Origin: Agreia sp. PsM10
Lineage (GTDB): Bacteria; Actinomycetota; Actinomycetes; Actinomycetales; Microbacteriaceae
Assembly (NCBI RefSeq): GCF_030433855.1
Contig: NZ_JARUXC010000003.1
Span: forward strand, 248,001-312,000
Reading direction: 5' to 3'
DNA: 64,000 bases
Position numbers and translations under genes: made by a program. The notes beneath the pieces were generated by a model. It was given only the letters and a program-made list of their open reading frames with translations. It ran no database searches and was not told the origin of the DNA. Of this stretch, positions 11,962-62,787 are shown piece after piece; position 1 is the stretch's first letter, and each line of letters begins with the position of its first letter.

Positions 11962-12009
11962 GTCAGTTCTGCCCCTTCGACGAGAAAGCCGGTGCCGTTA
12001 ACGAACGAA

Positions 12010-12061
12010 TCCGTTCCCCGGCCGTGGGGGCGTGCACCCTCACGACAGCCCGGGGAACGGA
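12010..12061 (-). terminator. Long hairpin downstream of rpoZ, probable terminator
   Basis: A 12-bp inverted repeat (TCCGTTCCCCGG with CCGGGGAACGGA) encloses a second, smaller inverted repeat built on CGTGAGGG and CCCCCACG. On the minus strand the hairpin is followed by ATTCGTTCGTT, which is only weakly T-rich. It begins 16 bases after the rpoZ stop. It probably ends or attenuates transcription between rpoZ and coaBC. Confidence 0.6.
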
Positions 12062-12077
12062 GCTGCATTCGCTGCTG

Positions 12078-12341
12078 TTATTCGGTGGCCGCGATGGGCT
12101 TGACCGTGAGCTTGTCCTCGTTGATCTCGTGCATCGCGACCGAGAGGGGCTTGTCGTCGATGGTCGAGTCGACCAGCGGTCCGACGTTGTCGAAGAGGCT
12201 TCCCTCATGCAGGTCTGCGTAGTAGTCGTTGATCTGCCGAGCGCGCTTCGACGCGAAGATCACGAGCGCGTACTTGGATTCAACCTTCGACAGCAGTTCG
12301 TCGATGGGGGGATCGATGATGCCCTGTGCCCTGTTGACCAT
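12078..12341 (-). CDS. rpoZ: RNA polymerase omega subunit
   Basis: Omega helps RNA polymerase assembly by clamping the beta' subunit. The protein has 87 residues. The conserved actinobacterial core is clear: [32 protein letters not shown], written here in parts as [28 protein letters not shown] and the C-terminal [13 protein letters not shown] 12341 is the first residue of this conserved stretch, so the longer open frame upstream was not used. It follows gmk in the usual actinobacterial order gmk-rpoZ-coaBC-metK. Confidence 0.95.
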
Positions 12342-12469
12342 GGTGATACTCCTTGATTGGCCTCGCCGGCCGGATTGAGAAAAGATCGTGCGGTGACGTG
12401 CGGCTTCACCGTGCACAAGTAGACAAGTCTACCTCGGATTGGCCGCCGACCACTCGGATCTGTCGCTGA

Positions 12470-13351
12470 TCACTGCATGAGCTCCACGACGTCGCGTGCG
12501 GCGGCCTCGACATCGTTGTTCACGATGAGGTAGTCGAACTCGTTCTGGGCCGCCAGCTCGACCTCGGCGGTCGCGAGACGTCGCTCCTGCTCCTCGGGCG
12601 ATTCCGTTCCCCGACCCGTGAGCCGGCGGACGAGCTCCGCCCAGCTCGGCGGGAGCAGGAAAACCAGGCGTGCCTCCGGCATGGCCGCTCGAACCTGCCT
12701 GGCGCCCTGGATGTCGATCTCGAGCAGCACGCTCCTGCCCTCGGCCAGCGCCTTGTCGATCGGGGCGCGGGGCGTGCCGTACCGCGACGAGTTGTGCACG
12801 ACGGCCCATTCGAGGAACTCGCCGGCCTCGATCATGCGGTCGAATTCGGCATCGTCGACGAAGTAGTAGCTCACGCCGTCGACCTCGCCCGGGCGTGGGG
12901 CCCGTGTCGTGGCGGACACCGAGAGGAGCACGCCGGGCACGTTCTCGCGGATCCACGTCGACACCGTTCCCTTGCCCACCGCCGTGGGGCCGGCGAGCAC
13001 GACGAGTCGCGAGGCCTTCTCGTCGCCCGTGAACGGCGCCCGCTTCAGCAGGTACTCGCGCAGGCGGTCGCGCTGGAGCGCGCCCAGTCCGCCCAGACGC
13101 TTGCTGGGAGAGATCGACAGCCGCTCGATCACGCGTTCGATGCGCACCCGACCGAGTCCCGGGATGCCCTGGAGCAGCTCGGTCACCCGCATGCCGGCCT
13201 CGAGGCTGTCGGGATGCTTCGAGGCGCGATCGAGGACGCCGGTCGCGCTGCGACGCTGCTCGGTCACCGCCTTCTTGATGGCGGCCCGGGCGCGTCGGGC
13301 GGCGATGGCCGCCCGGGAGCCCGCGGCGCGGTCGACGTCGGGAACGGTCAT
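12470..13351 (-). CDS. gmk: Guanylate kinase with N-terminal mIHF-like DNA-binding domain
   Basis: Guanylate kinase phosphorylates GMP to GDP. At 293 residues the protein is about 100 longer than usual. Residues 112-293 are the kinase: P-loop GPTAVGKGT (121-129), [20 protein letters not shown] with the GMP-binding site, and DIQGARQV. Residues 1-102 are different: a basic helix rich in R/A/K, then [21 protein letters not shown] and [14 protein letters not shown]. These match the actinobacterial integration host factor (mIHF), which is normally a separate gene directly upstream of gmk. The reading frame is continuous with no internal stop. The gene ends in a 4-bp overlap with pyrF upstream. Confidence 0.9.
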
Positions 13352-14234
13352 GACAGTGCTCCGGATAGTTGGCCCGCCTGGTCGGCGAGCGTGTCTGCGA
13401 GGGCGGATGGCCCCGCGGACAGGGCGGATCTGGACGTGCTCACGATCGTGCCCGCGGCGAGCGGGCCGTAGATCGAGCCGAGGTCGTCGAAGAGCGCCCC
13501 CTGGTGGCCGAAGCCGGGTGCGAGCACCGGCATCAGCGGCGCCCCCTCGGCGAGGGAGTGCACGTCGACGCCGTAGTCGAGGAGGTTCTTCGTTGCACCG
13601 AGCACGACTCCGATGCTACCGAGTGCCGGGGTGTCGACGTCGTCATCGCCGGCGATGACGTGCCGCCGGTTCCACTCGTCGATCTCCGTCGCGACGAGCC
13701 CGGCGACCGTCAGGTCTCCGCGTTCGGTCGCCGCGACCCGGGCCGTCTGAACCAACAGGGACTCCGGGTTCGAGGTGGCCGCGAGCACGAATGCGCCCTT
13801 GCCGTGCCGCTGGGCGAGGTCGAAGACTCCCCCGAGCGATCCGGTGCCCGCATACGCCGCGAGGGTCACGGCGTCTGCTTCGAGCGGCGAACCAGGCGTC
13901 AGCCAGGCGTCGCCGTAGGCGTCGACGCTGGATCCGATATCGCCCCGTTTCGCGTCCGCGATCACCAGGAGCCCTGCCTGCCTCGCCGCGGCGAGCACGT
14001 CCTCGAGGGCGGCGAAGCCGGCCGAGCCGAACACCTCGAAGAAGGCGACCTGGGGCTTCACGATTCCGATGGTTGCACTCGCGGCGTCCACGACCCTCAG
14101 CCCGAATTCGCGCAACCCGGCGGCCGTGCGCGGCAGGCCCCAGGCATCCAGGAGGAAGCCGTGGGGATCGATGCCGACGCACAGCCGACCGCGCTGCTCG
14201 ATGGTCGTGTGCAGCCGCTGGCCGAACGATCGGG

Positions 14235-14238
<4 letters not shown>
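13348..14238 (-). CDS. pyrF: Orotidine 5'-phosphate decarboxylase
   Basis: PyrF makes UMP from OMP, the last step of de novo pyrimidine synthesis. The 296-residue protein is the longer actinobacterial type; the catalytic tetrad motif appears as [12 protein letters not shown] near residue 98. It starts at GTG 14238, which overlaps the carB stop (GTGA), and it overlaps gmk by 4 bp at its own end. CarB, PyrF and Gmk are therefore likely to be translated in a coupled way. Confidence 0.94.
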
Positions 14239-17527
<3,289 letters not shown>

Positions 17528-52769: not shown

Positions 52770-52820
52770 CAGACGGCTCGTGCCCCTCGGACGGCCCATG
52801 CCCCTCAGATGGCATTAACG
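52770..52820. repeat. Imperfect 18-bp tandem repeat upstream of thrS
   Basis: The unit CAGACGGCTCGTGCCCCT (52770-52787) is followed by CGGACGGCCCATGCCCCT (52788-52805) and a partial third copy beginning CAGATGGC. It lies between the thrS start and the hairpin at 52824. Its role is unknown; it could be part of the thrS promoter region. Confidence 0.7.
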
Positions 52821-52823
52821 ACG

Positions 52824-52850
52824 AAAGCCCCCGGTCTCCCGGGGGCTTTT
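52824..52850. terminator. Hairpin terminator, original downstream terminator of tRNA-Val(GAC)
   Basis: AAAGCCCCCGG and CCGGGGGCTTT form an 11-bp perfect stem with a TCTC loop, flanked by A and T runs on both sides, so it can act in both directions. It directly precedes the left copy of the tRNA 3' end. Before integration it stood just after tRNA-Val(GAC). A near-copy carried by the element now serves the tRNA. Confidence 0.85.
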
Positions 52851-52853
52851 CGT

Positions 52854-52882
52854 TCTGTGGGCGATACTGGGATCGAACCAGT
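52854..52882. repeat. Left attachment site attL
   Basis: The 29 bp are identical to 62712-62740. Bases 52859-52882 are the tRNA-Val(GAC) 3' segment (T stem-loop and acceptor strand). Beyond 52882 the similarity to tRNA stops, so this is a remnant and not a working gene. Confidence 0.9.
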
Positions 52883-52962
52883 ATTTAGGTTACTGGGCCG
52901 ATGCCTGAATCTCCGCCATTCTTGTCCCGCAATCGCCGGAATAAAGCGCATGTGACCCCCAC

Positions 52963-53029
52963 CGTGCTAGCGTCACTGTTGTTCACATCTGACCATGAGT
53001 TATCACAGGATGTAGCACGTTACAGCACG
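52963..53029. promoter_or_regulatory. Left-arm integrase binding sites (TAGCACG repeats)
   Basis: TAGCACG occurs at 53013-53019, a variant CAGCACG at 53023-53029, and an inverted copy (CGTGCTA) at 52963-52969. The same heptamer appears twice near the right end. Short repeats flanking an att core fit arm-type sites of phage tyrosine integrases. TTGACG at 53033-53038 could be the -35 box for the next gene, with only a weak -10. The rest of 52883-53075 shows nothing else. Confidence 0.6.
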
Positions 53030-53075
53030 GAATTGACGCGCCCAGAGCGTCGATACGACTACTGAGGGGGACAAA

Positions 53076-53303
53076 ATGACCACTAGCACACTCGCAATCC
53101 GCACCGCAAGTCTCGACACCGTCGCGCCGGCCGAGCTCGAGCTCTTCGCCGCCGCCATCGGTATGGACGAACACGAGACCCACTCGATTCTGAACGGGAA
53201 GACTCCCCCGAACGCGCAGTTCATCGCATCCGTGCTCGCAACCTGGCCGGTCACGTTCTCCGAGGTTTTCGAAGTGGTGTTCGGTGACGACGTCGACGAG
53301 TAA
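53076..53303 (+). CDS. Small Cro/XRE-like regulator
   Basis: The 75-residue protein has a helix-rich layout (PAELELFAAAIGMDEHETHSILNG then PPNAQFIASVLATWPVTFSEVFEVV) like small Cro/XRE-type phage proteins; a helix-turn-helix is likely near residues 28-55 but not certain. ATG 53076 is preceded by GAGGGGG. Its end overlaps the integrase start by 20 bp, so it probably controls integrase translation as well as expression. No larger CI-type repressor exists on the element. Confidence 0.65.
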   Translation: MTTSTLAIRTASLDTVAPAELELFAAAIGMDEHETHSILNGKTPPNAQFIASVLATWPVTFSEVFEVVFGDDVDE

Positions 53304-54474
53304 AGGCCGCAAGCCGCAAAAGGGCCGCGCGGCGTTCGGGTGGGTGCGGGAGCTCCCGAGTAAGCGGTTCCAAGCTTCGTACACCGGGCTGGACGGGAAA
53401 CGCTATCTGGCGCCGCACACCTTCGACACGAAGACCGACGCCCGCGGCTGGCTCGCGATTCAACAGGCGTCGATTCATCAGGGCCAATGGAGCGCGACGG
53501 ATGCGGCGCGCACGGAAGCGGGGCAGAAGGCGAAGGGCGTCACGTTCGGCCCATACGCCGAGCGCTGGATCGCAACCCGCATCAATCGCCACGGTGAACC
53601 TCTGAGACCGCGGACGCGGGTGGAGAACGAACGGTTGTTGCGTTCGTCGTTGGCGGCATTCGCGGACCAGCGAGTGACTAGCCTCACCCCCGCGGCCGTT
53701 CGGGACTGGTATTCCGACCAGATGGCTACCGGCAAGAAGACCCAGGCCGCTCGAGCGTATGGTCTCCTAAATTCCATCCTCGCTACGGCGGCGCAAGATG
53801 GCATCATCAAAGTGAATCCCTGCATGGTGCGCGGCGCGCAAAACGCAACAACGGGCCGCAAGGTGACGCCACCCACGCCGACGCAACTCCAGACGATCTT
53901 CGACTCGATCACGCCCCGATATGTTGCCGCTGTTGCGATCGCGGCATGGGCAAGCTGCCGCTTCGGGGAGTTGACCGAGCTGCGCCGAAAAGACATCCTC
54001 GTGACGACCCTCGAGGGCTCAGTGAAGAGCGTCACGATAGGTGTCTCGAGGGCAGTCACTCACACCACGGGCCTCGGATTCATTGTTGGTAAAACCAAGA
54101 GCGAGGCGGGCGTGCGCGTAGTGACGCTCCCCCCACACATGAACGACGTGATTGTGCAGCATCTCCGGGAGAACGTGGGGCCGGAACCGGATTCACTGCT
54201 CTTCCCCGCGGCTGATGGCATCTCGCATCTTGCCCAGTCGACGTTCGTCAAGCACTGGTATCCGGCACGACGAGCAGCAGGACGCGAAGACATGCCATTC
54301 CATGCCCTCCGTCACTACGGTGCAACTCGATTCGCCCAAACCGGAGCCACCCTCAAGGAGATCCAAGAACGCCTTGGACACTCGACGGTGGAGGCGGCAA
54401 TGCGATACCAGCACACGGCTGGCCGTGACGAAGAACTCGCGGCTCGGATGAGCGAACTCGCGGCACCCAAATAG
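53284..54474 (+). CDS. int: Tyrosine recombinase (phage integrase)
   Basis: The integrase inserts and, with Xis, excises the element at tRNA-Val. The 396-residue protein has an N-terminal arm-binding domain (PQKGRAAFGWVRELPSKRFQASYTG), a core-binding domain (about 86-185) and a catalytic domain with R226 (ASCRFGEL), a lysine at 270/272, H340-x-x-R343 (FHALRHYGAT), H366 (LGHST) and Y375 (MRYQHT). All catalytic residues are present. It starts at GTG 53284 inside the preceding gene and lies near attL. Confidence 0.95.
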   Translation: MTTSTSKGRKPQKGRAAFGWVRELPSKRFQASYTGLDGKRYLAPHTFDTKTDARGWLAIQQASIHQGQWSATDAARTEAGQKAKGVTFGPYAERWIATRINRHGEPLRPRTRVENERLLRSSLAAFADQRVTSLTPAAVRDWYSDQMATGKKTQAARAYGLLNSILATAAQDGIIKVNPCMVRGAQNATTGRKVTPPTPTQLQTIFDSITPRYVAAVAIAAWASCRFGELTELRRKDILVTTLEGSVKSVTIGVSRAVTHTTGLGFIVGKTKSEAGVRVVTLPPHMNDVIVQHLRENVGPEPDSLLFPAADGISHLAQSTFVKHWYPARRAAGREDMPFHALRHYGATRFAQTGATLKEIQERLGHSTVEAAMRYQHTAGRDEELAARMSELAAPK

Positions 54475-54525
54475 AACATATCTTCTAATGTTCCTCCGCG
54501 CAAAAGTGCGCTAGGGGGCTAAATT

Positions 54526-54539
54526 CGAACACGTGTTCT
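54526..54539. promoter_or_regulatory. SOS-box-like palindrome upstream of the excisionase
   Basis: CGAACACGTGTTCT matches the Gram-positive/actinobacterial LexA box CGAAC-N4-GTTCG at nine of ten fixed positions, with a perfect GAACACGTGTTC core. TTGAAA (54553-54558), a possible -35, follows 13 bases later. A second dyad, GAACAT-N8-ATGTTC (54474-54493), overlaps the int stop. The rest of 54475-54653 is AT-richer than the chromosome and holds only this control region. Confidence 0.6.
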
Positions 54540-54653
54540 CGTGCCTTCTATATTGAAAACAAGAGCTGTAAGTGGGGTTACATACCTATTCCCACGGGCC
54601 GCAAGGATCGGCCGCGACGGCCAATCGTTGCTTTTCATATCGAAGGAGAACGC

Positions 54654-54854
54654 ATGTCCAGCACCCGCTACAAGAACGAAGGAACGCTGCAGGAGGGCGC
54701 CGAGATCGGCGGCGTAACCAAGCAGACCATGAGGCGCTACATCTCCGACGGGAAAGTCGAGGCGTACCGGTTCGGCCCGCGCCTGATTCGAGTGAATCTC
54801 GACTCGGTGCGTGCCCTCGGTCGACCGCTGCAGTACATCGACATAGCTGACTAG
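54654..54854 (+). CDS. xis: Excisionase-family DNA-binding protein
   Basis: The 66-residue protein is a MerR-like helix-turn-helix of the excisionase type: EGAEIGGVTKQTMRRYISDGKVEAYRFGPRLIRV, written here in parts as GGVTKQTMRRYISDGK and AYRFGPRLIRVNLDSVRAL. It would bend att DNA to direct excision. AAGGAGA lies 7 bases before ATG 54654. It stands behind the SOS-box-like site, so induction by DNA damage would favour excision. Confidence 0.8.
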   Translation: MSSTRYKNEGTLQEGAEIGGVTKQTMRRYISDGKVEAYRFGPRLIRVNLDSVRALGRPLQYIDIAD

Positions 54855-54859
54855 CGCGC

Positions 54860-55102
54860 GTGTCGACCACCAACCCGGAAGCCACTGCGGCGCTGGGCAT
54901 CAACTCTCTGACGTATCGGGATCCCACGGGCGAAGCCGTCGTTCGACGCCTCATGCCGGGTGACTACGCCATCACTGACTCGTCTGGCTTCACGCTCTGG
55001 ATAGACGCCGCCAACCTGGCGCCCGTGCTAACGCTCTACAACTTCCAGATGACCCGAACGGGCAAAAACATCCGTGGCCGACTCAAGCGCCGGAGAGGCT
55101 GA
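54860..55102 (+). CDS. Small element protein of unknown function
   Basis: The 80-residue protein starts at GTG 54860, 5 bases after xis. It has DYAITDSSGFTLWIDAANLAPVLTLYNFQM and a strongly basic end (KNIRGRLKRRRG), suggesting nucleic acid binding. No family is recognised. Confidence 0.55.
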   Translation: MSTTNPEATAALGINSLTYRDPTGEAVVRRLMPGDYAITDSSGFTLWIDAANLAPVLTLYNFQMTRTGKNIRGRLKRRRG

Positions 55103-55104
55103 CC

Positions 55105-55251
55105 ATGCTCGTGCAAGTCATCAATTCGAACGTGAGCCTCAAAGGTTCCACGGCCCAGGAAGAACTATCACCAGACCAGGCGCGCCGGCTGGCTACCCGC
55201 CTTCTGGAAGCTGCTGCGCAGGCAGAACGGACCGGCCCCGATTGGTCGTGA
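55105..55251 (+). CDS. Very small element protein (48 aa)
   Basis: The gene starts at ATG 55105, two bases after the previous stop, and ends at TGA 55251. The sequence LSPDQARRLATRLLEAAAQAERTG is an amphipathic helix of a kind common in small actinophage proteins. GAGAGG precedes the start at about 6 bases. The tight spacing supports it being real, but function is unknown. Confidence 0.55.
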   Translation: MLVQVINSNVSLKGSTAQEELSPDQARRLATRLLEAAAQAERTGPDWS

Positions 55252-55287
55252 CATCAACACAACTGAATATGGGCAAGAAGGGCACGC

Positions 55288-55641
55288 ATGACAATTTCGG
55301 CACGAAAGTGGGCGTGGAAGGTGCTCACCTATCCCGACCCGGAGACCGGCGCACAGGTTCCGCTACTCCCCCAAGAGAAGCTGACGCTCGCGTTCCTGGC
55401 TGAGATGGAGAACGCAGAGGAGGGCTATGCCTTCCCGGGGCAAGAGCTCATCGCAGAGGAAACCTGCCAGGGTTTGCGCTCGGTACGTCGACATCTCAAG
55501 TCCCTCGAGAACATCGGGGCGATTGAGATTCACAAGACGCGAAAGAGCAAGAGCGGCAAGTGGCTGAACAACGTGTATGTGCTGAACGTCGGTCCTGCTT
55601 TCCGAGCGCAGGACGCTGAGTGGAAACGGTACAACACCTAA
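55288..55641 (+). CDS. Winged-helix protein, probable replication initiator
   Basis: The 117-residue protein contains a winged helix-turn-helix: YAFPGQELIAEETCQGLRSVRRHLKSLENIGAIEI, seen in parts as PGQELIAEETCQGLRSVRRH and LKSLENIGAIEI, followed by a basic wing (HKTRKSKSGKWLNN). This layout matches the DNA-binding domain of phage replication proteins of the O or DnaD-like kind. It has no helicase or primase domain. Six bases after its stop begins an array of seven palindromic repeats, the expected binding sites. Similarly arranged initiators (lambda O) bind iterons in or next to their own gene. Confidence 0.65.
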   Translation: MTISARKWAWKVLTYPDPETGAQVPLLPQEKLTLAFLAEMENAEEGYAFPGQELIAEETCQGLRSVRRHLKSLENIGAIEIHKTRKSKSGKWLNNVYVLNVGPAFRAQDAEWKRYNT

Positions 55642-55646
55642 CACCT

Positions 55647-55805
55647 GCCACCTTGGCCAAGACCTGCCAATTTGGCCGGTGCACTACCTGCCAGATTGGC
55701 CAAAAAGTGCTTGGTCTTGAAACCACCTGCCACCGTGGCCAAACCGAATGCCACCTTGGCCACGTGAAGCGGCCAGATTGGCCAATCGCACCTGCCACGG
55801 TGGCC
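55647..55805. repeat. Array of seven iterons, GCCA-N3-TGGCC
   Basis: The motif GCCANNNTGGCC occurs at 55647, 55666, 55690, 55729, 55750, 55772 and 55794. Steps are 19, 24, 39, 21, 22 and 22 bp, so most units are about two helical turns apart, and one position in the series seems empty. Each unit is a short dyad (GCCA/TGGC). Five are preceded by ACCTGCCA-type sequence. It is likely an origin or operator region recognised by the winged-helix protein just upstream. AGTGAGTGACC is repeated directly after (55813-55834). Confidence 0.75.
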
Positions 55806-55906
55806 GCTTATCAGTGAGTGACCAGTGAGTGACCAGTGATCTAGTGACTAGGCCCATGGGGCCGACAAACCCAAAACGAAATATCCATCCCCCTCGAAAG
55901 GCAAAC

Positions 55907-56260
55907 ATGACAAGTCCCCGAGACAGCCGGCGCGACGCCGCGACTCATTCGACCGCCTCAGCCATCGTCCGTGATCTGCTCATCAATGGTGAAGCCGGCG
56001 ACCCCCTCACCATTCTCAGACACGGCTCTCTCCGCCACGTGCGCACCGACCGCGAACGCTCCGCCTTCTACGCCGAAGTCGCCGGCATCCTCGGATGGCA
56101 CGCCGTCGGCGGTCTCCTCAACGGCTCCGACATGAAGACAGCCCTAGCCAAGGTCGATTTGGTCGACCACGACAAGAAAACTCAGTTCGCTGCCGCCGAG
56201 CTCGCTCCGATCCTCGAGCGACAGCGGATGATTGACGGCGAGCACGGGGTGATCGATTGA
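55907..56260 (+). CDS. Element protein of unknown function (117 aa)
   Basis: The protein starts at ATG 55907 with AAAGG about 6 bases upstream. A longer open frame exists upstream but crosses the repeat region. The sequence is helical and charged (ERSAFYAEVAGILGWHAVGGLLNG, DHDKKTQFAAAELAPILERQ). No family is recognised. Its stop overlaps the TTG start of the next gene. Confidence 0.6.
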   Translation: MTSPRDSRRDAATHSTASAIVRDLLINGEAGDPLTILRHGSLRHVRTDRERSAFYAEVAGILGWHAVGGLLNGSDMKTALAKVDLVDHDKKTQFAAAELAPILERQRMIDGEHGVID

Positions 56261-56469
56261 GTACCCCTATGGATGTGGAAGAGCGCGCTCGTCTTCTCGC
56301 CGTTATCGAATCAGAACGTGCGTCGAAACGGCAATACCGGAGTAGGGCCAGGAACGCGGAAAAGAAGCTCATGGCGGTGCGCGCCGCACTCGAGCACCTG
56401 ACCACGTGGCAGACCGATCTAGCCGGGGCAATCAATACACGACACGACGCAGACGGACGCGATCGATGA
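56257..56469 (+). CDS. Small coiled-coil protein, first of a related pair
   Basis: The 70-residue protein is almost entirely helical: ERARLLAVIESERASKRQYRSRARNAEKKLMAVRAALEHL. TTG 56257 overlaps the previous stop and has GGGGTGAT in front; ATG 56269 is the alternative. It shares the pattern (R)RARNAE...LxxLxxWxxD...TR with the next protein, which suggests tandem duplication. Function is unknown. Confidence 0.55.
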   Translation: MSTPMDVEERARLLAVIESERASKRQYRSRARNAEKKLMAVRAALEHLTTWQTDLAGAINTRHDADGRDR

Positions 56470-56696
56470 CCGACACCCCGCCCGCGTTGCTCATCCGCCG
56501 AGCACGGAACGCAGAAAACAGCGTCGACTATTTCAGACGCAAGAATGCCCAGCTCGAGCTCAAACTTCATGCGGCGGAAAACACCGTAGCTGTCCTGACC
56601 AGGGCGCTGAGCGACCTCGACACCTGGCGCGCAGACGTACGGAAATTCATGGATACAAGACCCAACACCAAAACGAAGGATTCCCACAATGACTGA
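56466..56696 (+). CDS. Small coiled-coil protein, second of a related pair
   Basis: The 76-residue protein starts at ATG 56466, overlapping the previous stop by 4 bp. IRRARNAENSVDYFRRKNAQLELKLHAAEN predicts a coiled coil, and LSDLDTWRADVRKFMDTR parallels LEHLTTWQTDLAGAINTR in the first member. The end overlaps the scaffold-like gene by 8 bp. Function is unknown. Confidence 0.6.
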   Translation: MTDTPPALLIRRARNAENSVDYFRRKNAQLELKLHAAENTVAVLTRALSDLDTWRADVRKFMDTRPNTKTKDSHND

Positions 56697-57255
56697 TGCC
56701 CCCCAGGCAGCTCCCGCCGAATTCGAGCCCGAGGAGTTCACCGACCACTTTCTAAAGTCTGAGTTCAATCAGGCCGCGGCCGAGCTCGAGCGCAACTCAA
56801 CGACGGATGCCACCGCTGAGCAGGTCGACGAAGACGAGAACGACGCCACCGACGACAACGACATCGAAGACGCCGAGGATAGCGCCGACGACAAAGGGTC
56901 GACGGCGTGGCGCGAACGCATCAAGTTCAAGTATCGCGACCAGATTCGTAGCGTCACGCAGGAGCGAGACACGGCAGCGGCAGCGGTTGAAGGATTGCAG
57001 CGCCAAATCATCGAAGAGCAGGTGACCAGAGAAGGCATCAAGACGAACGCGTTCTGGGCCGCGGGTGCCGATATCGCTGGCCTACTCGCCGAGGACGGCA
57101 CCGTGAACACGGACGCAGTTCGACAGGCCGTAACTCATGCGCGATCGACGCTCGGAATCGGGAGATTCCAGGGGGGCATCGCGCAGGGGGCACACCTTCC
57201 GGCGCAGACTCACCCAGATCAGCCGACATGGTCGGAATTCGTGGAACAGAAGTGA
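56689..57255 (+). CDS. Probable capsid scaffolding protein
   Basis: The 188-residue protein fits phage scaffolds: an acidic, disordered first half (many E and D, residues 40-70), a central coiled coil (RIKFKYRDQIRSVTQERDTAAAAVEGL), and a conserved-looking C-terminal part (TNAFWAAGADIAGLLAEDGTVNTDAVRQA). It stands directly before the major capsid gene, where scaffolds normally are. This assignment rests on position and composition, not a firm domain match. Confidence 0.65.
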   Translation: MTDAPQAAPAEFEPEEFTDHFLKSEFNQAAAELERNSTTDATAEQVDEDENDATDDNDIEDAEDSADDKGSTAWRERIKFKYRDQIRSVTQERDTAAAAVEGLQRQIIEEQVTREGIKTNAFWAAGADIAGLLAEDGTVNTDAVRQAVTHARSTLGIGRFQGGIAQGAHLPAQTHPDQPTWSEFVEQK

Positions 57256-57310
57256 TATAATCCGCCGCCGGTCGTGTATACTAGTGAGGTACTAGTTCCA
57301 CGGCCGGCGG
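57256..57310 (+). promoter_or_regulatory. TATAAT box and two-tier hairpin upstream of the capsid gene
   Basis: TATAAT (57256-57261) follows the scaffold stop directly but has no good -35. Then CCGCCGGTCGTG (57265-57276) pairs with CACGGCCGGCGG (57299-57310), with one G-T pair, and encloses ACTAGT-GAGGT-ACTAGT, which can form an inner stem. A third ACTAGT follows at 57316. The block at 57256-57423 could be a promoter with an RNA control element or a protein-binding site for the capsid gene. Confidence 0.6.
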
Positions 57311-57423
57311 TCTGAACTAGTCAGTGAACGGCCCCGGTGGGGCAGAAACGCAATTCGAGGCGGAGCCTCTTGCATTCCCCCCATCATCGGCGCGCCCGCC
57401 GCGCATCAGCAGAAGGCCCATTC

Positions 57424-58275
57424 ATGGCTACCTCCACCACCACCTCTTTCGTAAAGACCTGGACCCCCACCGACTACGGTCAGCTCGTCGTCGCCACGGC
57501 TTCGAAACTCTCCGTTGCGCTCCGAGTAGGCGTAACGCACGTCACCGAGCGCAATGAGTTCCGCATCCCCCTGGTAACTAGCGAGCTGCAGGCCGCATGG
57601 GTCGGTGAGGCCCAGCCCGCGACAGAGAGCAACATCGGCACCGGCGAAGAGATCGTCAAGCCCAAGAAGACCATTGCATACTCTCGCCTGTCGGCTGAGC
57701 TCGTGGACGACTCGGACCCGGGTGCAGCCGAGAACGTTGGACTGTCGGGCTCGCGGGCGCTCGCTGACATCATCGACGCAGCTCTGTTCGGCTCCGCAGA
57801 CGGCGCGGGCAACATCCCCAAGGGACTGGGCGCCTTCAACGATGCGGCCCTCACGACACTGAGCGCCGGTGCCGCATGGACGAATGTAGATCCGTTCTCC
57901 GATGCCGTTTACGACGTCGACACCGCCGGCGGCACGCTGACATCCTTCATCGCGAACCCCGCTGATGCGAAGATCATCGCCAAGCTCAAGAAGGAAGCCG
58001 GAAGCAACGAACCGCTCTTGGCTACGGATGCCACCAGCCCCACCAAGCGCGTGCTGTCAGGCCTCCCCTTGTTCACCTCGCTGCGGGTGCCCGCGGGCAC
58101 CATCTACGGTATCGACGCACAGAACCTCCACATTGTCGTTCGTAAAGGCACGACCATCGACCTGGATCGCAGCGTCTTCCACCAGACCGACGAGGTAGCA
58201 GTGCGCGTACTCAGCCGCGTGGGCTTCGGGTACAGCCACCCGAAGAGCATCGCTCGCATCAAGCTCACGTCCTAG
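57424..58275 (+). CDS. Major capsid protein, HK97 fold
   Basis: The 283-residue protein resembles actinophage major capsid proteins: an N-terminal arm, ERNEFRIPLVTSELQAAWVGEAQPATES with the family E-loop-like stretch, KPKKTIAYSRLSAELVDDSD, and a C-terminal domain (IDLDRSVFHQTDEVAVRVLSRVGFGYSHPKSIARIKL). There is no N-terminal delta domain, which fits with use of a separate scaffold. ATG 57424 has AGAAGG 8 bases upstream; the longer open frame crosses the leader. No capsid protease gene is present. Confidence 0.85.
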   Translation: MATSTTTSFVKTWTPTDYGQLVVATASKLSVALRVGVTHVTERNEFRIPLVTSELQAAWVGEAQPATESNIGTGEEIVKPKKTIAYSRLSAELVDDSDPGAAENVGLSGSRALADIIDAALFGSADGAGNIPKGLGAFNDAALTTLSAGAAWTNVDPFSDAVYDVDTAGGTLTSFIANPADAKIIAKLKKEAGSNEPLLATDATSPTKRVLSGLPLFTSLRVPAGTIYGIDAQNLHIVVRKGTTIDLDRSVFHQTDEVAVRVLSRVGFGYSHPKSIARIKLTS

Positions 58276-58288
58276 CCACCAGCACACA

Positions 58289-58333
58289 CGAGAAGGTCTC
58301 ACGCTCACACACCACGAGCGCGAGACCTTCTCG
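58289..58333 (+). terminator. Strong hairpin after the capsid gene
   Basis: CGAGAAGGTCTC-A-CGCTC pairs with GAGCG-C-GAGACCTTCTCG, a 17-bp stem with one mismatch and a 9-base loop. The sequence after it (CATCTC) is not T-rich, so it may be an mRNA 3'-stabilising or partial terminator structure that favours high capsid production. The rest of 58276-58540 includes a CCCCCGATGT direct repeat near 58424-58452. Confidence 0.6.
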
Positions 58334-58540
58334 CATCTCAGCACCTACCGCACACCACAGGGCACACGCACCCGGCACCCTGACGGCTCCCAGCCAACGC
58401 ACTGCGAGCGGCCAGACAGCTGACCCCCGATGTGGGGGGTATCCCCCGATGTTGATACAGCAGATCACCGCCACGGAGGGCTTTGCCCCTGGCATGCATG
58501 CCCGCATCCCATTTTTTCCAGCCCCCGAAAGGCCGAGGCC

Positions 58541-58903
58541 ATGGCAGTTATCCCCCGAATTCTCAAGGATCGAGGCCGCAAACTCTGGCGCGATCTCCAA
58601 CGCGAAGCCGAATTCGACCCCCACGAAACGCCCGTTCTGCTCGAAACATGCCGCACAGTCGACACAATCGACGCTCTCGCAGACGCGATCGAGCGCGACG
58701 GCGTCATGATCACGGGCTCACAGGGACAGAGCGTCATAAATCCGGCCGTGGCCGAACTGAGGCAGCAACAGCAGTCGCTCGCCCGTCTGATGGGGATTCT
58801 GAACCTCGACAGCATCGACTCGGTTGCGTCTCTTCAAACGCTCGCGTCGATCCATGGGCGAGCCGCCGCGAATGCTCGGCACAGCAAGCGGAACCGTGCC
58901 TAG
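58541..58903 (+). CDS. Small terminase subunit, P27-like
   Basis: Small terminases pick the DNA to be packaged. The 120-residue protein shows the P27 pattern: a helical start (ILKDRGRKLWRDL), LLETCRTVDTIDALADAIERDGVMIT, and GSQGQSVINPAVAELRQQQQSLARLMGILNL, where (G)xxxNPAxxE is typical. No large terminase follows, which is unusual. ATG 58541 has AAAGG about 9 bases upstream; the longer open frame crosses the hairpin region. Confidence 0.75.
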   Translation: MAVIPRILKDRGRKLWRDLQREAEFDPHETPVLLETCRTVDTIDALADAIERDGVMITGSQGQSVINPAVAELRQQQQSLARLMGILNLDSIDSVASLQTLASIHGRAAANARHSKRNRA

Positions 58904-59156
58904 GCGCCGCGTTCCGAAGGCCGCGACCGGAAATGTGATGCCTGCCGCGCTCGAAATCTCTCCCCGCGCTTGGCGGCTGGCGCTTCTCGCCGGCGACCTC
59001 ACAAACGATGAGTACGGCACGGCTCGAGCGGAAAATGCCACGGCTCGTCGCGCTTTCCTCGCCACCTGCACCACCAAGCCGAAGAACGTTCCCGAAGCCG
59101 AGTTCCTGCAAGCCCACGGGTTGAGCTGGGAACAACGGCACCTCTTCCAGCCCTGA
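58896..59156 (+). CDS. Small element protein of unknown function (86 aa)
   Basis: GTG 58896 overlaps the small terminase stop; ATG 58938 is an alternative giving 72 residues. The sequence ALEISPRAWRLALLAGDLTNDEYGTARAE then NVPEAEFLQAHGLSWEQRHLF has no family that I recognise. Its position between small terminase and tape measure suggests a head or tail function, perhaps a connector or chaperone. Confidence 0.5.
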   Translation: MPRRRVPKAATGNVMPAALEISPRAWRLALLAGDLTNDEYGTARAENATARRAFLATCTTKPKNVPEAEFLQAHGLSWEQRHLFQP

Positions 59157-59266
59157 ATTTCTCCTCACAGCGTCAACCGCACCGCCGAGTTCGTCATTTC
59201 TCGGAGCACCGGAACGGATGGCTAGCGAGCGACCCTCCTTTCGTCGCGATGACCTGCCAGCGCCTC

Positions 59267-59317
59267 GAGCGAGCCCCGTAGACGGCAGTCACACGCCTAC
59301 GGGTCTCGCTCGCTTTG
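59267..59317 (+). terminator. Hairpin between the packaging genes and the tape measure gene
   Basis: GAGCGAG-C-CCCGTAG pairs with CTACGGG-T-CTCGCTC with a 15-base loop, followed by GCTTTG. It lies in a 206-bp gap (59157-59362). It could end the capsid-terminase transcript, so the tape measure gene may use its own promoter in the 59312-59362 stretch. Confidence 0.65.
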
Positions 59318-59362
59318 TCGTACCCGGATCCCGGGCGACCCCAACACTTCGAAGGAATCCAC

Positions 59363-62300
59363 ATGACCGACCGCACTATCGCGATCAGACTTACCGCCAA
59401 CGTCGCGGAGCACAACAAGAACATCGATCTAGCCAGGGAACGAGTTCAGGCCTACGGGGCCGAGACCGTTGCTACGGCTAATCGTCAAGAGGCGATGCAG
59501 CAGGCTGTGCAGAAGGTCGGCCAAGGCTTTCTCGTCGGCGGTCTCGCTATCGGCGCTGGTGTGGCCCTGGTGGTAACCGCATATGCGCGCTACGACAAGG
59601 CGCTGTCTGGCTTCGACGCCGTGGCCCAAGTGTCGGACGCGACCCTCTCGCAGCTCGGCGACACGGCGGTTACCCTCGGCAAGAAATACGGTGTAGGTGC
59701 ATCCGACGCGATCGCCGGCGCAACCGACCTCAAGAAGGCCGGCGTAGAGGTCGCCGACATCATGGGTGGCGCTCTAAACGGTGCCCTGACACTCACCGCG
59801 GCCGGGAACATGAGCGTGGGCGACTCTGCCGAGACCGCGGCCATCGCCATGACCCAGTTTGGGCTCTCTGGCAAGGACGTCCCCCACATCGCCGACCTCC
59901 TCGCCGCGGGTGCGGGCAAAGCCGTCGGTGAAGTCTCAGACCTCGCAGCGGCACTTCGACAGTCCGGGCTCGTCGCCAGCCAGTTCGGTCTTTCCCTAGA
60001 TGAGACAGTCGGCGGGCTGAGTGCGTTCGCCAGCGCGGGCCTGATCGGTTCGGACGCCGGTACGTCGTTCAAGTCGATGCTTCTCTCCATGGCGTCGCCT
60101 ACGGGTGTTGCGGCCAAGGAGATGGCTAAGTACAACCTCGACCTCTACGACGGGGAAGGCCACTTCATTGGCCTCAGCGCCGCGGCAGGTGCCCTACAGA
60201 CCAGTTTCAAGGGAGTGAGCGACGAGAACCGGCAGGCGGCGCTCTCGATCATCTTCGGCCAGGACGCGATTCGATCCGCAACCGTGCTCTACCAGCAGGG
60301 CGCGGCCGGAATCGAGAAGTGGACCGACATGGTCAACGATGCCGGTTACGCCGAGGAGATGGCGACGGCGAAGCTGAACAACCTCGATGGCGACTGGAAG
60401 AAATTCAACGCCACCCTCGAGGGCGACTTCATCAAAGCCGGATCCGGCGCGAACGACATCCTCCGCGGACTTGTCCAGGGTGCCACGGGGCTCCTCGACG
60501 TCGTCGGGGCCGTGCCCGCACCTGTGCTCGCGACAACGCTCGTCCTCGGCGCGCTCGGTGCCGGTCTCCTCATCGCGACAGGCGCATTCATCCTGGGAGT
60601 CCCGAAGGTTCTCGCGTTCCGGGCGGCTCTCGCAACGATCAGCGAGACCGCACCAGGTGTGGCCGCGAACGTGGGCCGGGTCACCTCTGCTCTCGGTGCG
60701 ATCGGTCGCGGTGCCCTCGCGCTCTCGCTCCTCGTTGGCCTGTTCCAGATGTTCGAAGCGAGCCTGAAACCGTCGACGGCCGAGCTCGCGAAGATGGATG
60801 CGGCGCTCGAGCGCGCGTCAAGCGGCACGGCGATCCTGAAAAGCGGAATCGCGAATGTCGAGTCGGGATCGGATTCGTTCAACCGTGCAGCCGCGAAGCT
60901 CGAGAACCTTGATGGCGTTCTGGACATCACCGCAGCTCGGTCGAAGGACTTCTGGGGTGCCCTCAACAACGGTGGCGCGCCGTCTGGCGTCGAAGGATAC
61001 GCGTTCAGCGACGCGGAGAAGGCGCTAAAAGCCATCGGCGGGCAACTGGGCACCCTGGCAGAAACAAACCTCCCAGCAGCCCAGAAAGCCTTCTCTCTTC
61101 TCGTGGAGAAGACCGACGGCAGCGAGCAGTCACAGTGGCGACTCCTCCGGGCAACCGAGGGCTACGAAGCCGGACTCCGTACCCAAGCGGAGGCGCTGGG
61201 CATCAACGTCGACACCACAGATGACGCCGTCAACAAGCAGCGACTTCTCGAGCTAGCCCAGGGAACCGGGCTCTACGCCACGAAGACTCTTACGGACGGC
61301 ACCACCGCGCTAGCCGACAGCACGCAGGCACAGGCACAGGCATCCGAAGAGGCATCGGAAGCGCTCGCGAAATGGATCGAGGCGACCTCGGACGCCGACG
61401 CTGCGTTCGTCGATCTCGGTTCGATCATGGACAACGTCCGCGAGAAGAACAAGGCCGCGGCCGAAGGCCTCGCGGATGCGTGGAACGAAGCCAACCCGGA
61501 TGAGCCCGCTCAGGAATGGGGCGACTTCTACGACGGCATGAGCGTGTCGATCGAGGACTACATGGCCGACCTGCAGAGGCAGGTCGACGCGCAGACCAAC
61601 TGGGAAGCGAACATGATCGCCCTCTCTGGGCGTGTGTCTACCGGAATGATCGATGAACTGCGTGACCTCGGCCCCGAGGGTGCCGACCAGGTGGCGCTCC
61701 TCAACACGATGACGGACGAACAGCTTGCGGTCGTCGAAGCGAACTTCGGGCAGCGCGCGGCCGGCGCCACGGGCCAGTTCGCGAGCACCCTCAACAACGC
61801 CGCTCCGGTGATCGCCGCGGCAGGCGCGCAGCTCGGGCAGGGCGCCGCGATGGAGATCGCGACGAAGCTCGCGAACGGGACTTCCACGGTCGACCAGATC
61901 ATGACCGATTACGGCATCACAATCGAGTCAATCAAACCCGAAGTCACGGTTACGGCCAAGACGGACGCAGCAGTCGCGTCCATCAACAGCGTGCAGACCG
62001 CGCTCGATTCGCTCGACACGTTCAAGTCGATCTCCGTCGCGATCTCGGCGGTAGTTGATGCCGCGACGAGCAAGGCCGACGGTGGGCTGATCCCGAACAT
62101 GGCCGGCGGTTCGCCCTCATGGTTCGGCAATGGAGTCGTCACCGGCCCCGGCGGATCTCGTGACGACAAGGTGAAGGCGAACCTTTCCCCCGGTGAGTTC
62201 GTTGTGAACGCGAGGCAGACCGCCGCGCATCTCTCCGACCTGATCGCCATCAACGCGGGCCAGGAGCCATCGTGGGGCGATAACGGCGTGTACGGGACCC

Positions 62301-62449
62301 CGACCTACCTCCGCAGCTCGCAAGGCTCCACAACAGGCGGCAGCACGACGACAGTAAACAACAGTTTCACCATCCACGCCGCCCCCGGGATGGACGAAGA
62401 CGCGCTGACCGACCGTATCGCTCGAAAGTTCGATAAAGCACTCCGCTAG
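59363..62449 (+). CDS. Phage tail tape measure protein, TP901 family
   Basis: The tape measure sets tail length and helps DNA pass into the cell. The 1028-residue protein has the TP901 core near residues 60-400 (DATLSQLGDTAVTLGKKYGVGASDAIAG, VGEVSDLAAALRQSGL), a hydrophobic segment (TTLVLGALGAGLLIATGAFILGV), long helical parts and a C-terminal Gly-rich stretch with GPGGSRDDKVKANLSPGEFVVNARQ. ATG 59363 has AAGGA 8 bases upstream. At roughly 1.5 A per residue it would match a tail of about 150 nm. No major tail protein, chaperone (gpG/GT) or distal tail gene accompanies it. Confidence 0.9.
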   Translation: MTDRTIAIRLTANVAEHNKNIDLARERVQAYGAETVATANRQEAMQQAVQKVGQGFLVGGLAIGAGVALVVTAYARYDKALSGFDAVAQVSDATLSQLGDTAVTLGKKYGVGASDAIAGATDLKKAGVEVADIMGGALNGALTLTAAGNMSVGDSAETAAIAMTQFGLSGKDVPHIADLLAAGAGKAVGEVSDLAAALRQSGLVASQFGLSLDETVGGLSAFASAGLIGSDAGTSFKSMLLSMASPTGVAAKEMAKYNLDLYDGEGHFIGLSAAAGALQTSFKGVSDENRQAALSIIFGQDAIRSATVLYQQGAAGIEKWTDMVNDAGYAEEMATAKLNNLDGDWKKFNATLEGDFIKAGSGANDILRGLVQGATGLLDVVGAVPAPVLATTLVLGALGAGLLIATGAFILGVPKVLAFRAALATISETAPGVAANVGRVTSALGAIGRGALALSLLVGLFQMFEASLKPSTAELAKMDAALERASSGTAILKSGIANVESGSDSFNRAAAKLENLDGVLDITAARSKDFWGALNNGGAPSGVEGYAFSDAEKALKAIGGQLGTLAETNLPAAQKAFSLLVEKTDGSEQSQWRLLRATEGYEAGLRTQAEALGINVDTTDDAVNKQRLLELAQGTGLYATKTLTDGTTALADSTQAQAQASEEASEALAKWIEATSDADAAFVDLGSIMDNVREKNKAAAEGLADAWNEANPDEPAQEWGDFYDGMSVSIEDYMADLQRQVDAQTNWEANMIALSGRVSTGMIDELRDLGPEGADQVALLNTMTDEQLAVVEANFGQRAAGATGQFASTLNNAAPVIAAAGAQLGQGAAMEIATKLANGTSTVDQIMTDYGITIESIKPEVTVTAKTDAAVASINSVQTALDSLDTFKSISVAISAVVDAATSKADGGLIPNMAGGSPSWFGNGVVTGPGGSRDDKVKANLSPGEFVVNARQTAAHLSDLIAINAGQEPSWGDNGVYGTPTYLRSSQGSTTGGSTTTVNNSFTIHAAPGMDEDALTDRIARKFDKALR

Positions 62450-62454
62450 ACACC

Positions 62455-62490
62455 AGCGCCCCCACCTTTCGAGGTGGGGGCGCTATTCGT
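62455..62490 (+). terminator. Terminator after the tape measure gene
   Basis: AGCGCCCCCACC and GGTGGGGGCGCT form a perfect 12-bp stem with a TTTCGA loop, followed by ATTCGTGTTT. It begins 6 bases after the tape measure stop. Confidence 0.85.
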
Positions 62491-62515
62491 GTTTGCGGGG
62501 CGGTAGCGTGACGCC

Positions 62516-62653
62516 ATGACGACACGAGATATCACGCCGAGAGACTGCCCCGAGCACGGACCATTCACGGGAGTTCTCATTCAACCGACCGGCGACACGC
62601 CCGAACTGTTCATCTGTGATGAATGCGAGAGGTTGAAGGAAGAAGTGAAGTAG
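62516..62653 (+). CDS. 45-aa protein with CxxH and CxxC pairs
   Basis: ATG 62516 to TAG 62653 encodes 45 residues with DCPEHGPF and ICDECERL, a likely zinc-binding arrangement (C-x2-H, C-x2-C). No clear Shine-Dalgarno is close to the start. The stop codon is part of the right integrase arm site. It is the last gene of the element; function is unknown, perhaps a small regulator. Confidence 0.5.
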   Translation: MTTRDITPRDCPEHGPFTGVLIQPTGDTPELFICDECERLKEEVK

Positions 62654-62668
62654 CACGTATGTAGCACG
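62650..62668. promoter_or_regulatory. Right-arm integrase binding sites (TAGCACG repeats)
   Basis: TAGCACG occurs at 62651-62657 and 62662-62668, an 11-bp step. With the copies at 52963-53029 they flank the core in the reconstructed attP. Confidence 0.6.
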
Positions 62669-62686
62669 ACCCCCCAGAAACGAGGA

Positions 62687-62710
62687 AAACCCCCGGTTTC
62701 CCGGGGGTTT
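62687..62710. terminator. Element-borne terminator replacing that of tRNA-Val(GAC)
   Basis: AAACCCCCGG and CCGGGGGTTT form a perfect 10-bp stem with a TTTC loop, and the minus strand continues TTTTCC. It stands 7 bases after the tRNA 3' end. It is a near-copy of the chromosomal hairpin at 52824-52850. Confidence 0.85.
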
Positions 62711-62711
62711 C

Positions 62712-62740
62712 TCTGTGGGCGATACTGGGATCGAACCAGT
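62712..62740. repeat. Right attachment site attR
   Basis: The 29 bp repeat attL exactly. Bases 62717-62740 are the 3' part of the intact tRNA-Val(GAC), so the element restores the tRNA it entered. Confidence 0.9.
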
Positions 62741-62787
62741 GACCTCTTCCGTGTCAGGGAAGCGCGCTACCGCTGCGCCAATCGCCC
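62717..62787 (-). tRNA. tRNA-Val(GAC)
   Basis: On the minus strand GGGCGAT pairs with ATCGCCC in the acceptor stem. The anticodon stem CTTCC/GGAAG holds the loop CTGACAC with anticodon GAC, and the T arm ACTGG-TTCGATC-CCAGT is perfect. It has 71 bases and no encoded CCA. Its 3' end is the integration target of the element. Confidence 0.95.

Follow-up and report, generated by a model that had tools for sequence, protein, structure and literature searches.

A predicted phage satellite of Agreia that encodes its own capsid protein and tail tape measure

A mobile element of Agreia sp. PsM10 was analysed, which occupies positions 52854-62740 of a 64,000-nucleotide stretch (the window) and lies in a 409-kb contig of the 4.0-Mb genome. 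In a preliminary description made from the sequence it had been regarded as a helper-dependent phage satellite, building its own shell and bringing its own packaging specificity and tape measure, and the comparative evidence given below favours this reading. The unusual part of the element is the tape measure, not the shell.

Gene organization and integration site

Based on PHROGs and Pfam, every assigned gene is located on the + strand and is intact. The main features are listed in window coordinates, with E-values after the family names (aa, amino acids; ORF, open reading frame; MCP, major capsid protein; TerS, small terminase; HTH, helix-turn-helix).

52854-52882: attL, 29-bp direct repeat, identical to 62712-62740; single copy between the flanks in six of seven congeners
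53284-54474, +: tyrosine integrase, 396 aa (phrog_1, 1.4e-58; PF00589, 8.8e-16)
54654-54854, +: excisionase-like HTH_17 protein (phrog_7506, recombination directionality factor, 3.7e-4; PF12728, 1e-5)
55288-55641, +: replication initiator, O-like, winged helix (phrog_391, 1.6e-10; PF13730, 7.1e-8)
55642-55807: iteron cluster, five 19-nt copies of the CACCTGCCACCTTGGCCAA type (repeat search, family D2), the likely origin
56689-57255, +: scaffold-like protein, 188 aa, directly upstream of MCP (43% over 105 aa to the scaffold of locus L115)
57424-58275, +: MCP, HK97 fold, 283 aa (PF05065, 1.5e-25, on the longer ORF from 57337)
58495-58519, +: cos-like motif TGCATGC-n-TTTTTTCC, inferred packaging site, ending 21 bp before the TerS start
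58541-58903, +: TerS, P27 / Terminase_4, 120 aa (phrog_1496, 1.2e-19, and PF05119, 3.7e-7, on the longer ORF from 58430)
59363-62449, +: tail tape measure protein, 1,028 aa (phrog_1533, 3.7e-72, and PF10145, 2.1e-41, on the longer ORF from 59315)
62712-62740: attR, 29-bp direct repeat in the 3' end of tRNA-Val(gac) (repeat search, tRNA call)

The list agrees with the genes first named (integrase, excisionase, replication protein with iterons, scaffold, MCP, small terminase and tape measure, all intact and on one strand), with the reservation that two are better called excisionase-like and scaffold-like. The PF12728 match of the excisionase-like protein falls slightly below the curated cut-off. 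The scaffold-like protein itself gave only insignificant PHROG matches, and its naming follows from its position and from homologues beside MCPs, one of which (L115) matches phrog_233 (head scaffolding, 1.3e-5). The likely starts of MCP (57424), TerS (58541) and the tape measure (59363) were revised with the gene caller. An AlphaFold model of the capsid protein (mean pLDDT 78) matched HK97 Prohead II best (E 1e-16). The 283-aa MCP seems to lack a delta domain, which would fit a separate scaffold and the absence of a protease. The tape measure matched the tail tape measure of PDB 9g8s at 1.2e-14.

The two 29-bp repeats are identical at 29 of 29 positions and lie 9,858 bp apart, the right one forming the 3' end of tRNA-Val(gac) (62715-62787, minus strand), in agreement with the preliminary description. 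The empty site, consisting of the left flank, one att copy and the right flank at the expected spacing, was found in six of the seven other genomes of the genus. The closest one (G140) agrees at 97% in the left flank, 100% in att and 93% in the right flank; in another (L110) 28 of the 29 att bases aligned and the left flank failed to align over its final 100 bp, while the seventh congener (L111) matched the left flank alone. The G+C content per kb is 0.59-0.65 within the element and 0.64-0.73 outside. The att repeats and the empty site indicate a discrete mobile element with integration functions and a precise site, as is expected of a phage satellite.

Its set of virion genes is incomplete, as is also expected of a satellite. 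Of 56 ORFs of at least 60 aa within the element, 13 are the scanned genes; none of the other 43, on both strands, reached a PHROG family at E 0.01. Families of large terminase, portal, protease, tail tube, fibre or lysis proteins had no significant match among the 56, a result that holds for all of them with the sensitivity of PHROGs and for ten with that of Pfam. The gaps first reported (large terminase, portal, protease, connectors, major tail, fibre and lysis genes) thus reappear, and so does the absence of broken genes. The large-terminase family phrog_2 had no match in the host genome. The small gene before the tape measure was considered as a tail chaperone and was rejected for want of a PHROG match in the window. 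Among satellite-like loci (defined below), L081 alone matched the chaperone panel, without a PHROG match, and a gene beside the tape measure of L079 weakly matched a small-terminase family (4.7e-4).

The cos-like motif has a single match on both strands of the window, and among 43 other loci, comprising 1.7 Mb searched on both strands, it matched once. The same pattern is found at position 15 of the phages Footloose and Mendokysei (two of five records tested), and a looser pattern at position 15 of Bernal13 and position 10 of WillG (two of six records, WillG being in both sets).

The remaining features of the element are as follows.

53076-53303, +: HTH DNA-binding protein, 75 aa (phrog_3642, 1.7e-7)
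54860-55102, +: 80-aa protein common to satellite-like L083 (43% over 65 aa)
55105-55251, +: 48-aa protein common to satellite-like L083 and L094 (51-57% over 35-39 aa)
55829-56260, +: 143-aa protein without PHROG or Pfam match
56257-56469, +: 70-aa protein with a weak match alone (E 0.095)
56466-56696, +: 76-aa protein, start by gene caller; the longer ORF from 56406 had no significant match
58289-58335: inverted repeat after MCP, likely terminator (read off the sequence, unscored)
58935-59156, +: 73-aa protein between TerS and the tape measure, without PHROG match and without homologue among 45 loci searched
62516-62653, +: 45-aa ORF with two cysteine clusters (CPEHG, CDEC), from the ORF list, without PHROG match

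A terminator-like repeat is present beside att (52817-52851 and 62679-62713, 86% alike), the copy of the element resembling the host repeat downstream of tRNA-Val. Since the element carries this copy beside its att site, tRNA-Val may retain a terminator after integration. Besides the window element, att repeats at tRNA-Val(GAC) were found in L081, L086 and L126, and elements adjoin this tRNA gene in L159, L161 and L162 (seen as neighbourhood, no repeats being computed). tRNA-Val(GAC) looks like a common integration site.

Relatives of the element in actinobacterial genomes and phage records

Relatives were collected by MCP, by tape measure and by integrase; L-numbers denote loci taken from other genomes and G-numbers denote genomes. 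The MCP matched 22 of 299 family genomes at E 0.001, the own genome included. Among the 21 other places, 12 (L027-L038) were opened widely and nine were viewed to about 3.4 kb only. Except for two remote matches in prophage-type loci, which have a portal and do not carry the block of the window (L037 and L038), and an MCP fragment (L031), the opened loci contain an integrase and MCP, most with a scaffold. A species-wide scan with four MCPs against 84,980 genomes, one per species, yielded 16 loci, all actinobacterial by title (L116 and L127 repeat L027 and L028), the hosts ranging from Microcella (54% identity) to Actinomyces, Nocardia, Actinokineospora, Blastococcus, Brevibacterium and an acidimicrobial metagenome-assembled genome. 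With a phage-protein panel, a scaffold was detected near MCP in 15 of the 16 (not on the 5-kb contig L125), an integrase in 13 (in two pieces in L116; not in L122, L124 or L125) and a portal in none; absences by this panel are no proof, as it missed split large terminases that were found later. TerS of the P27 type is present in L115, L116, L117 (weakly) and L122. A satellite plan of integrase, replication gene, scaffold and MCP, sought elsewhere as the preliminary description had suggested, is thus found in 16 actinobacterial loci and at several integration sites. A full-length siphophage carrying the block, from which the element might have arisen by a one-off deletion, was not found among these places, nine of the 21 family places being the short views.

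Tests for att repeats were made on 18 of 28 capsid loci (leaving out L116, L127, L037, L038, L031, L035 and L122-L125). A convincing repeat, either overlapping a tRNA gene (15-57 bp) or at least 18 bp long, was detected in 16, those of L033 and L118 being unconvincing; no chance rate was computed, and unrelated repeats of 13-16 bp occur in the same output. The spans are 6.5-10.3 kb, or 8.2-10.3 kb without L027. Tape measures of other families are present in L028/L127 (729 aa, Ruicaihuangia caeni) and L036 (676 aa).

A PHROG scan of L029 exposed a split large terminase. The proposal that capsid satellites never carry a large terminase was discarded, because split ones are present in L029, L123, L126, L129 and L130; these five form a subgroup with a companion gene of 163-185 aa and no portal found. 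In IMG/VR, a scan with a single MCP gave no relative, and one with four MCPs gave a single contig (L114, 13.5 kb), on which two diverged xis-rep-MCP blocks lie in tandem, one followed by TerS.

The tape measure matched in 31 of 299 family genomes, the own genome included. The set examined, 31 loci of 17-20 kb plus the window (32 in total), was classed by jackhmmer with the panel. Portal and tail tube were found in eight loci (L070, L072, L074, L076, L085, L089, L096 and L098), and MCP lies 3-7 kb off in six (L077, L088, L092, L093, L097 and L100). Three mutually alike loci of ambiguous type (L073, L090 and L095) were counted as prophage-type, and L099 is a fragment. The other 14 of the 32 (the window, L071, L075, L078, L079, L080, L081, L082, L083, L084, L086, L087, L091 and L094) are satellite-like, defined as having no panel large terminase, portal or tail tube within the surrounding 17-20 kb. 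An integrase is present in 13 of the 14 (not in L071, and 8 kb away in L075). In seven, TerS precedes the tape measure at a distance of up to 1.6 kb, and convincing att repeats, with spans of 10.1-16.3 kb, are present in five of the 13 besides the window. Among 30 larger residual proteins, two match head scaffolding families, and large terminase, portal and tail tube were absent from the 25 listed of 60 matched families.

A protein family of 180-200 aa, designated cl6, occurs in 10 of the 13 satellite-like loci besides the window (weakly in L078) and in none of the 17 prophage-type loci; one member, queried by tblastn, had no match in 50,697 phage records. The cl6 profile matches 22 of 298 family genomes, and at 12 further places cl6 again lies with integrase and/or replication genes. 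The family (for instance L083, 7340-7876) shows the motif LS.EGK ... RDAQDRA, gave no significant PHROG match in five members scanned, and is often preceded by a gene of an HTH family, cl12. In L145, a cl6 element carries a tape measure of a second family (10955-14746, a 1,263-aa ORF).

Directly after the tape measure, L078 and L080 encode S74-chaperone and beta-helix proteins, tail-tip-like in appearance: the S74 chaperone at L078 11696-12340 and the right-handed beta helix, slightly below the Pfam cut-off, at L080 11947-13668. No satellite-only signature was seen at the ends of the tape measures. The median length is 921 in satellite copies (n=13) and 990 in the others (n=17), with p 0.013, a difference too weak to rely on; p ignores relatedness, and the split L091 and the fragment L099 were left out. 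The copy of the window is full size and similar in length to the prophage copies.

Among phage records, the MCP matched 14, two of them weakly; the other 12 are Mycolicibacterium phages of 10.9-11.1 kb, namely WillG, Anya, Alyssa1 and nine more (GenBank OR387110-OR387121). Their MCP is 31-32% identical to that of the window, and all 12 have a tape measure. Annotated in the WillG and Alyssa1 records are a terminase, an adaptor and a stopper, a serine integrase, and MCP together with a tape measure; portal, large terminase and tail tube do not appear in the annotation. They were deposited as phages, and no paper on these accessions was found in the open literature. The title 'complete genome' suggests sequencing from lysates, and in that case a gene set of this kind would be packaged. 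Like the window element, the WillG type combines MCP and tape measure without large terminase, portal or tail tube, and has an integrase and an HTH gene; the order is terminase-adaptor-stopper ... MCP-tape measure in the two records. It differs in its serine integrase, in its own head-to-tail adaptor and stopper, neither of which was found in the window element, in the terminase gene at the left end, and in a tape measure that is shorter (651 aa), belongs to another family and immediately follows MCP. The tape measure of the phage Herbertwm, from the same host species as WillG, has 807 aa. The two are 64% identical over the first 345 residues and 79% over the last 66, in contrast to a middle of 31% identity with 174 gap columns. 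Such a pattern would be expected of a ruler that docks to parts of a helper, and Herbertwm is a likely type of helper rather than a demonstrated one.

Mosaic relationships and selection

A quick tree was built from 34 tape measures, of which 31 came from the loci and three from phages. In this tree, satellite copies are scattered among those of prophages and phages. There are eight satellite/other state changes, at least six of which are forced by starred branches, and shuffled labels gave a number as low in 16 of 500 trials; details of the tree are unsure around two long branches, L100 and L073. The window tape measure is the sister of a prophage copy, L070. The initiator, scaffold and MCP, on the other hand, are closest to those of the capsid satellite L115 among the loci compared, TerS to satellite-like L078 (49%) and L115 (46%), and two small genes to L083.

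At E 1e-60, a free search with the integrase gave matches in 14 of 298 family genomes, counting the own one. Elements at the same tRNA gene have integrases of 66% (L159), 64% (L086), 63% (L081), 59% (L161) and 52% (L162) identity. They lie between a threonyl-tRNA-synthetase-like gene or an att repeat and tRNA-Val(gac), and no panel portal, large terminase or tail tube was detected in them. Four of the five best matches outside the own genome are in satellite-like elements, L160 (57%) being ambiguous; L163 was too short to judge, and att repeats were not computed for three new loci. The best integrase among phage records reached 44%. A 496-aa protein of L159 (8125-9615) has a weak MCP match (2e-5) and is possibly a larger capsid protein. 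Because integrase, shell genes and tape measure are nearest to different types of loci, the element has the appearance of a recombinant between types of satellite.

The ratio dN/dS was estimated for 22 pairs, all with saturated dS. It was 0.27, 0.41, 0.43 and 0.41 for satellite-satellite pairs of tape measures, 0.35 and 0.35 for prophage pairs, 0.44 for MCP between the window and the Microcella element (L115), 0.46 and 0.61 for cl6, and 0.61 for the excisionase, the last value being the highest of all. Values near 1 across the structural genes, named in advance as evidence against an intact satellite, were thus not observed.

Comparison with known satellites and interpretation

Classical phage-inducible chromosomal islands (PICIs) and P4 have no capsid protein of their own and remodel the capsid of the helper, and, to our knowledge, satellites were formerly thought to take tails ready-made. 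With its own MCP (PF05065), the element differs from the classical forms, in agreement with the preliminary description. In a 2026 report, the tape measure of PLE (PICI-like element) of Vibrio cholerae was shown to replace that of the helper in chimeric tails; these are about 10 nm shorter, as predicted from a difference of 95 aa, and deletion of the gene lowers transfer by 96-99.9% (PMC12987554). PLE resembles the window element in encoding a tape measure. It differs in that PLE11 virions hold helper capsid proteins, whereas the window element has its own MCP, and in that its tails are contractile, with a tail chaperone, in PLE11 also a hub protein, encoded beside the tape measure. With its own MCP and a host among Microbacteriaceae, the element stands outside PLE, a Vibrio element in helper capsid proteins.

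Capsid-forming PICIs by definition encode protease, portal, connectors and large terminase (as cited in PMC10690885), and some have predicted tmp genes (PMC12987554, Extended Data Fig. 10). The element has in common with them a shell of its own, with an MCP of HK97 fold (PF05065), TerS and, for some of them, a predicted tape measure, whereas portal, head maturation protease, connectors and large terminase were not found among its 56 ORFs; the preliminary description had likewise spoken of a smaller gene set than that of capsid-forming satellites. The Streptomyces satellites MulchRoom and MiniFlayer are likewise actinobacterial, with own capsid, scaffold and TerS, but encode large terminase and portal, and a tape measure is not mentioned for them (PMC10690885). 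In mycobacteria, capsid-bearing candidate PICIs including the phiRv1/phiRv2 elements have been reported, with integrase and capsid gene, some with terminase and scaffold and some at tRNA genes (PMC10654092). The window element likewise has integrase and MCP in one bounded region; a tape measure is never mentioned in the main text of that report, the comparison being made by description. Of the original framing, the satellite with shell and ruler stands, and its singularity does not, given these candidate PICIs and the 12 Mycolicibacterium records that share shell and tape measure. Satellite tape measures are already known, and the actinobacterial form is new: a search of the open literature, with most subscription papers and all preprints outside its scope, gave descriptions for Vibrio and predictions for capsid-forming PICIs (PMC12987554), and no entry that describes tape-measure satellites of actinobacteria.

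The element is, in our judgement quite probably, an intact, integrated, helper-dependent satellite, which forms its own shell, packages by its own TerS and places its own ruler in the helper tail. The gene content, the precise insertion, the recurring plan, the mosaic relations and dN/dS well under 1 are observed here, and from them we infer excision, helper dependence, shell formation, cos packaging and tail incorporation. Upon infection or induction of a siphophage, the integrase/excisionase pair would free the element, and the O-like initiator would replicate it from the iterons. Scaffold and HK97-fold MCP would assemble a small shell, probably around the helper portal; the own TerS would read the cos-like site just upstream of terS and pass the DNA to the large terminase of the helper. 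Since tape measures work inside tails and the element makes no tube, a helper tail is needed; the own tape measure would supplant that of the helper in a tail whose other proteins come from the helper, so that head and tail of the particle would both be chimeric.

Several observations weigh against this proposal. Neither a particle nor an excised circle nor a helper has been observed, and none of the proteins of the element was recognised as a tail assembly chaperone. One or the other cos-like pattern is present in four of 10 left ends, two of these four belonging to a single genus, and both patterns were defined after inspection; no phage record or IMG/VR contig has the same site, by which a helper was sought. 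For initiator, scaffold and small genes the comparison was confined to loci selected by MCP, tape measure or cl6, a choice that biases the nearest relatives towards satellites. The full size of the window tape measure means that a shorter tail is not predicted. Full phages also have short tape measures, that of prophiGD43A-4 being one piece over 680 codons, so the middle of the WillG protein need not have shortened in a satellite.

Alternatively, the element may be a satellite whose tape measure is a weapon poisoning tail assembly of the helper, for interference or as a defence of the host, instead of being built into satellite tails, which we consider unlikely. In another system (PLE11 Rta; PMC12987554), tail-assembly interference is indeed directed at a tape measure, and most satellite-like tape-measure loci have no panel-known capsid gene. 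Against a weapon stand the long frames with dN/dS of 0.27-0.43, close to the 0.35 of prophage copies, and the two phage-like ends kept in WillG; PLE, the sole tested analogue, incorporates its tape measure.

It is very improbable that the satellite uses helper tails unchanged, with the tape measure as a passenger swapped in by late-region recombination and not yet lost. The tape measure of L091 is split into two ORFs and many capsid satellites, L115 among them, have no detected tape measure, both of which speak for a passenger and against the satellite with its own ruler; the presence of the gene in 14 loci with at least six forced state changes, mostly as long intact frames with dN/dS well under 1, is against it. 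Similarly remote is a decayed or deletion-derived prophage with its survivors intact by chance: the structural genes are of phage descent, the tape measure is the sister of that of prophage L070, and some relatives look decayed (the integrase of L116/L027 in pieces, the MCP fragment of L031), which again counts against the satellite reading, but the same plan is found in several actinobacterial families and at different integration sites, the order MCP-TerS-tape measure is unlike that of Seahorse, Footloose, Hum25 and Mendokysei, most genes have their nearest relatives in other satellite-like elements, and no gene of the window element is broken.

For the satellite carrying its own ruler, the benefit may be other than length, for example the dodging of blocks aimed at helper tape measures, because the window copy is about as long as the prophage copies. 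We consider the chances evenly balanced that an own ruler is a general strategy of Actinomycetota satellites, in which unrelated backbones repeatedly capture local siphophage tape measures, keep the helper-docking ends and retune the middle, some adding a spike-like tip protein; the window element would then be chimeric in head and tail, and the cl6-bearing, mostly capsid-less elements would form a satellite family of their own. For PLE the benefit of an own ruler is not established, and the other cases are predicted only (PMC12987554). The loci described here offer a natural series far from Vibrio, with siphophage-type rulers. Captures are numerous and have prophage copies to match them, some elements possess the gene and others lack it, and some make a shell as well. 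With this series, comparison and simple gene removal become ways to test why a satellite requires a ruler of its own.

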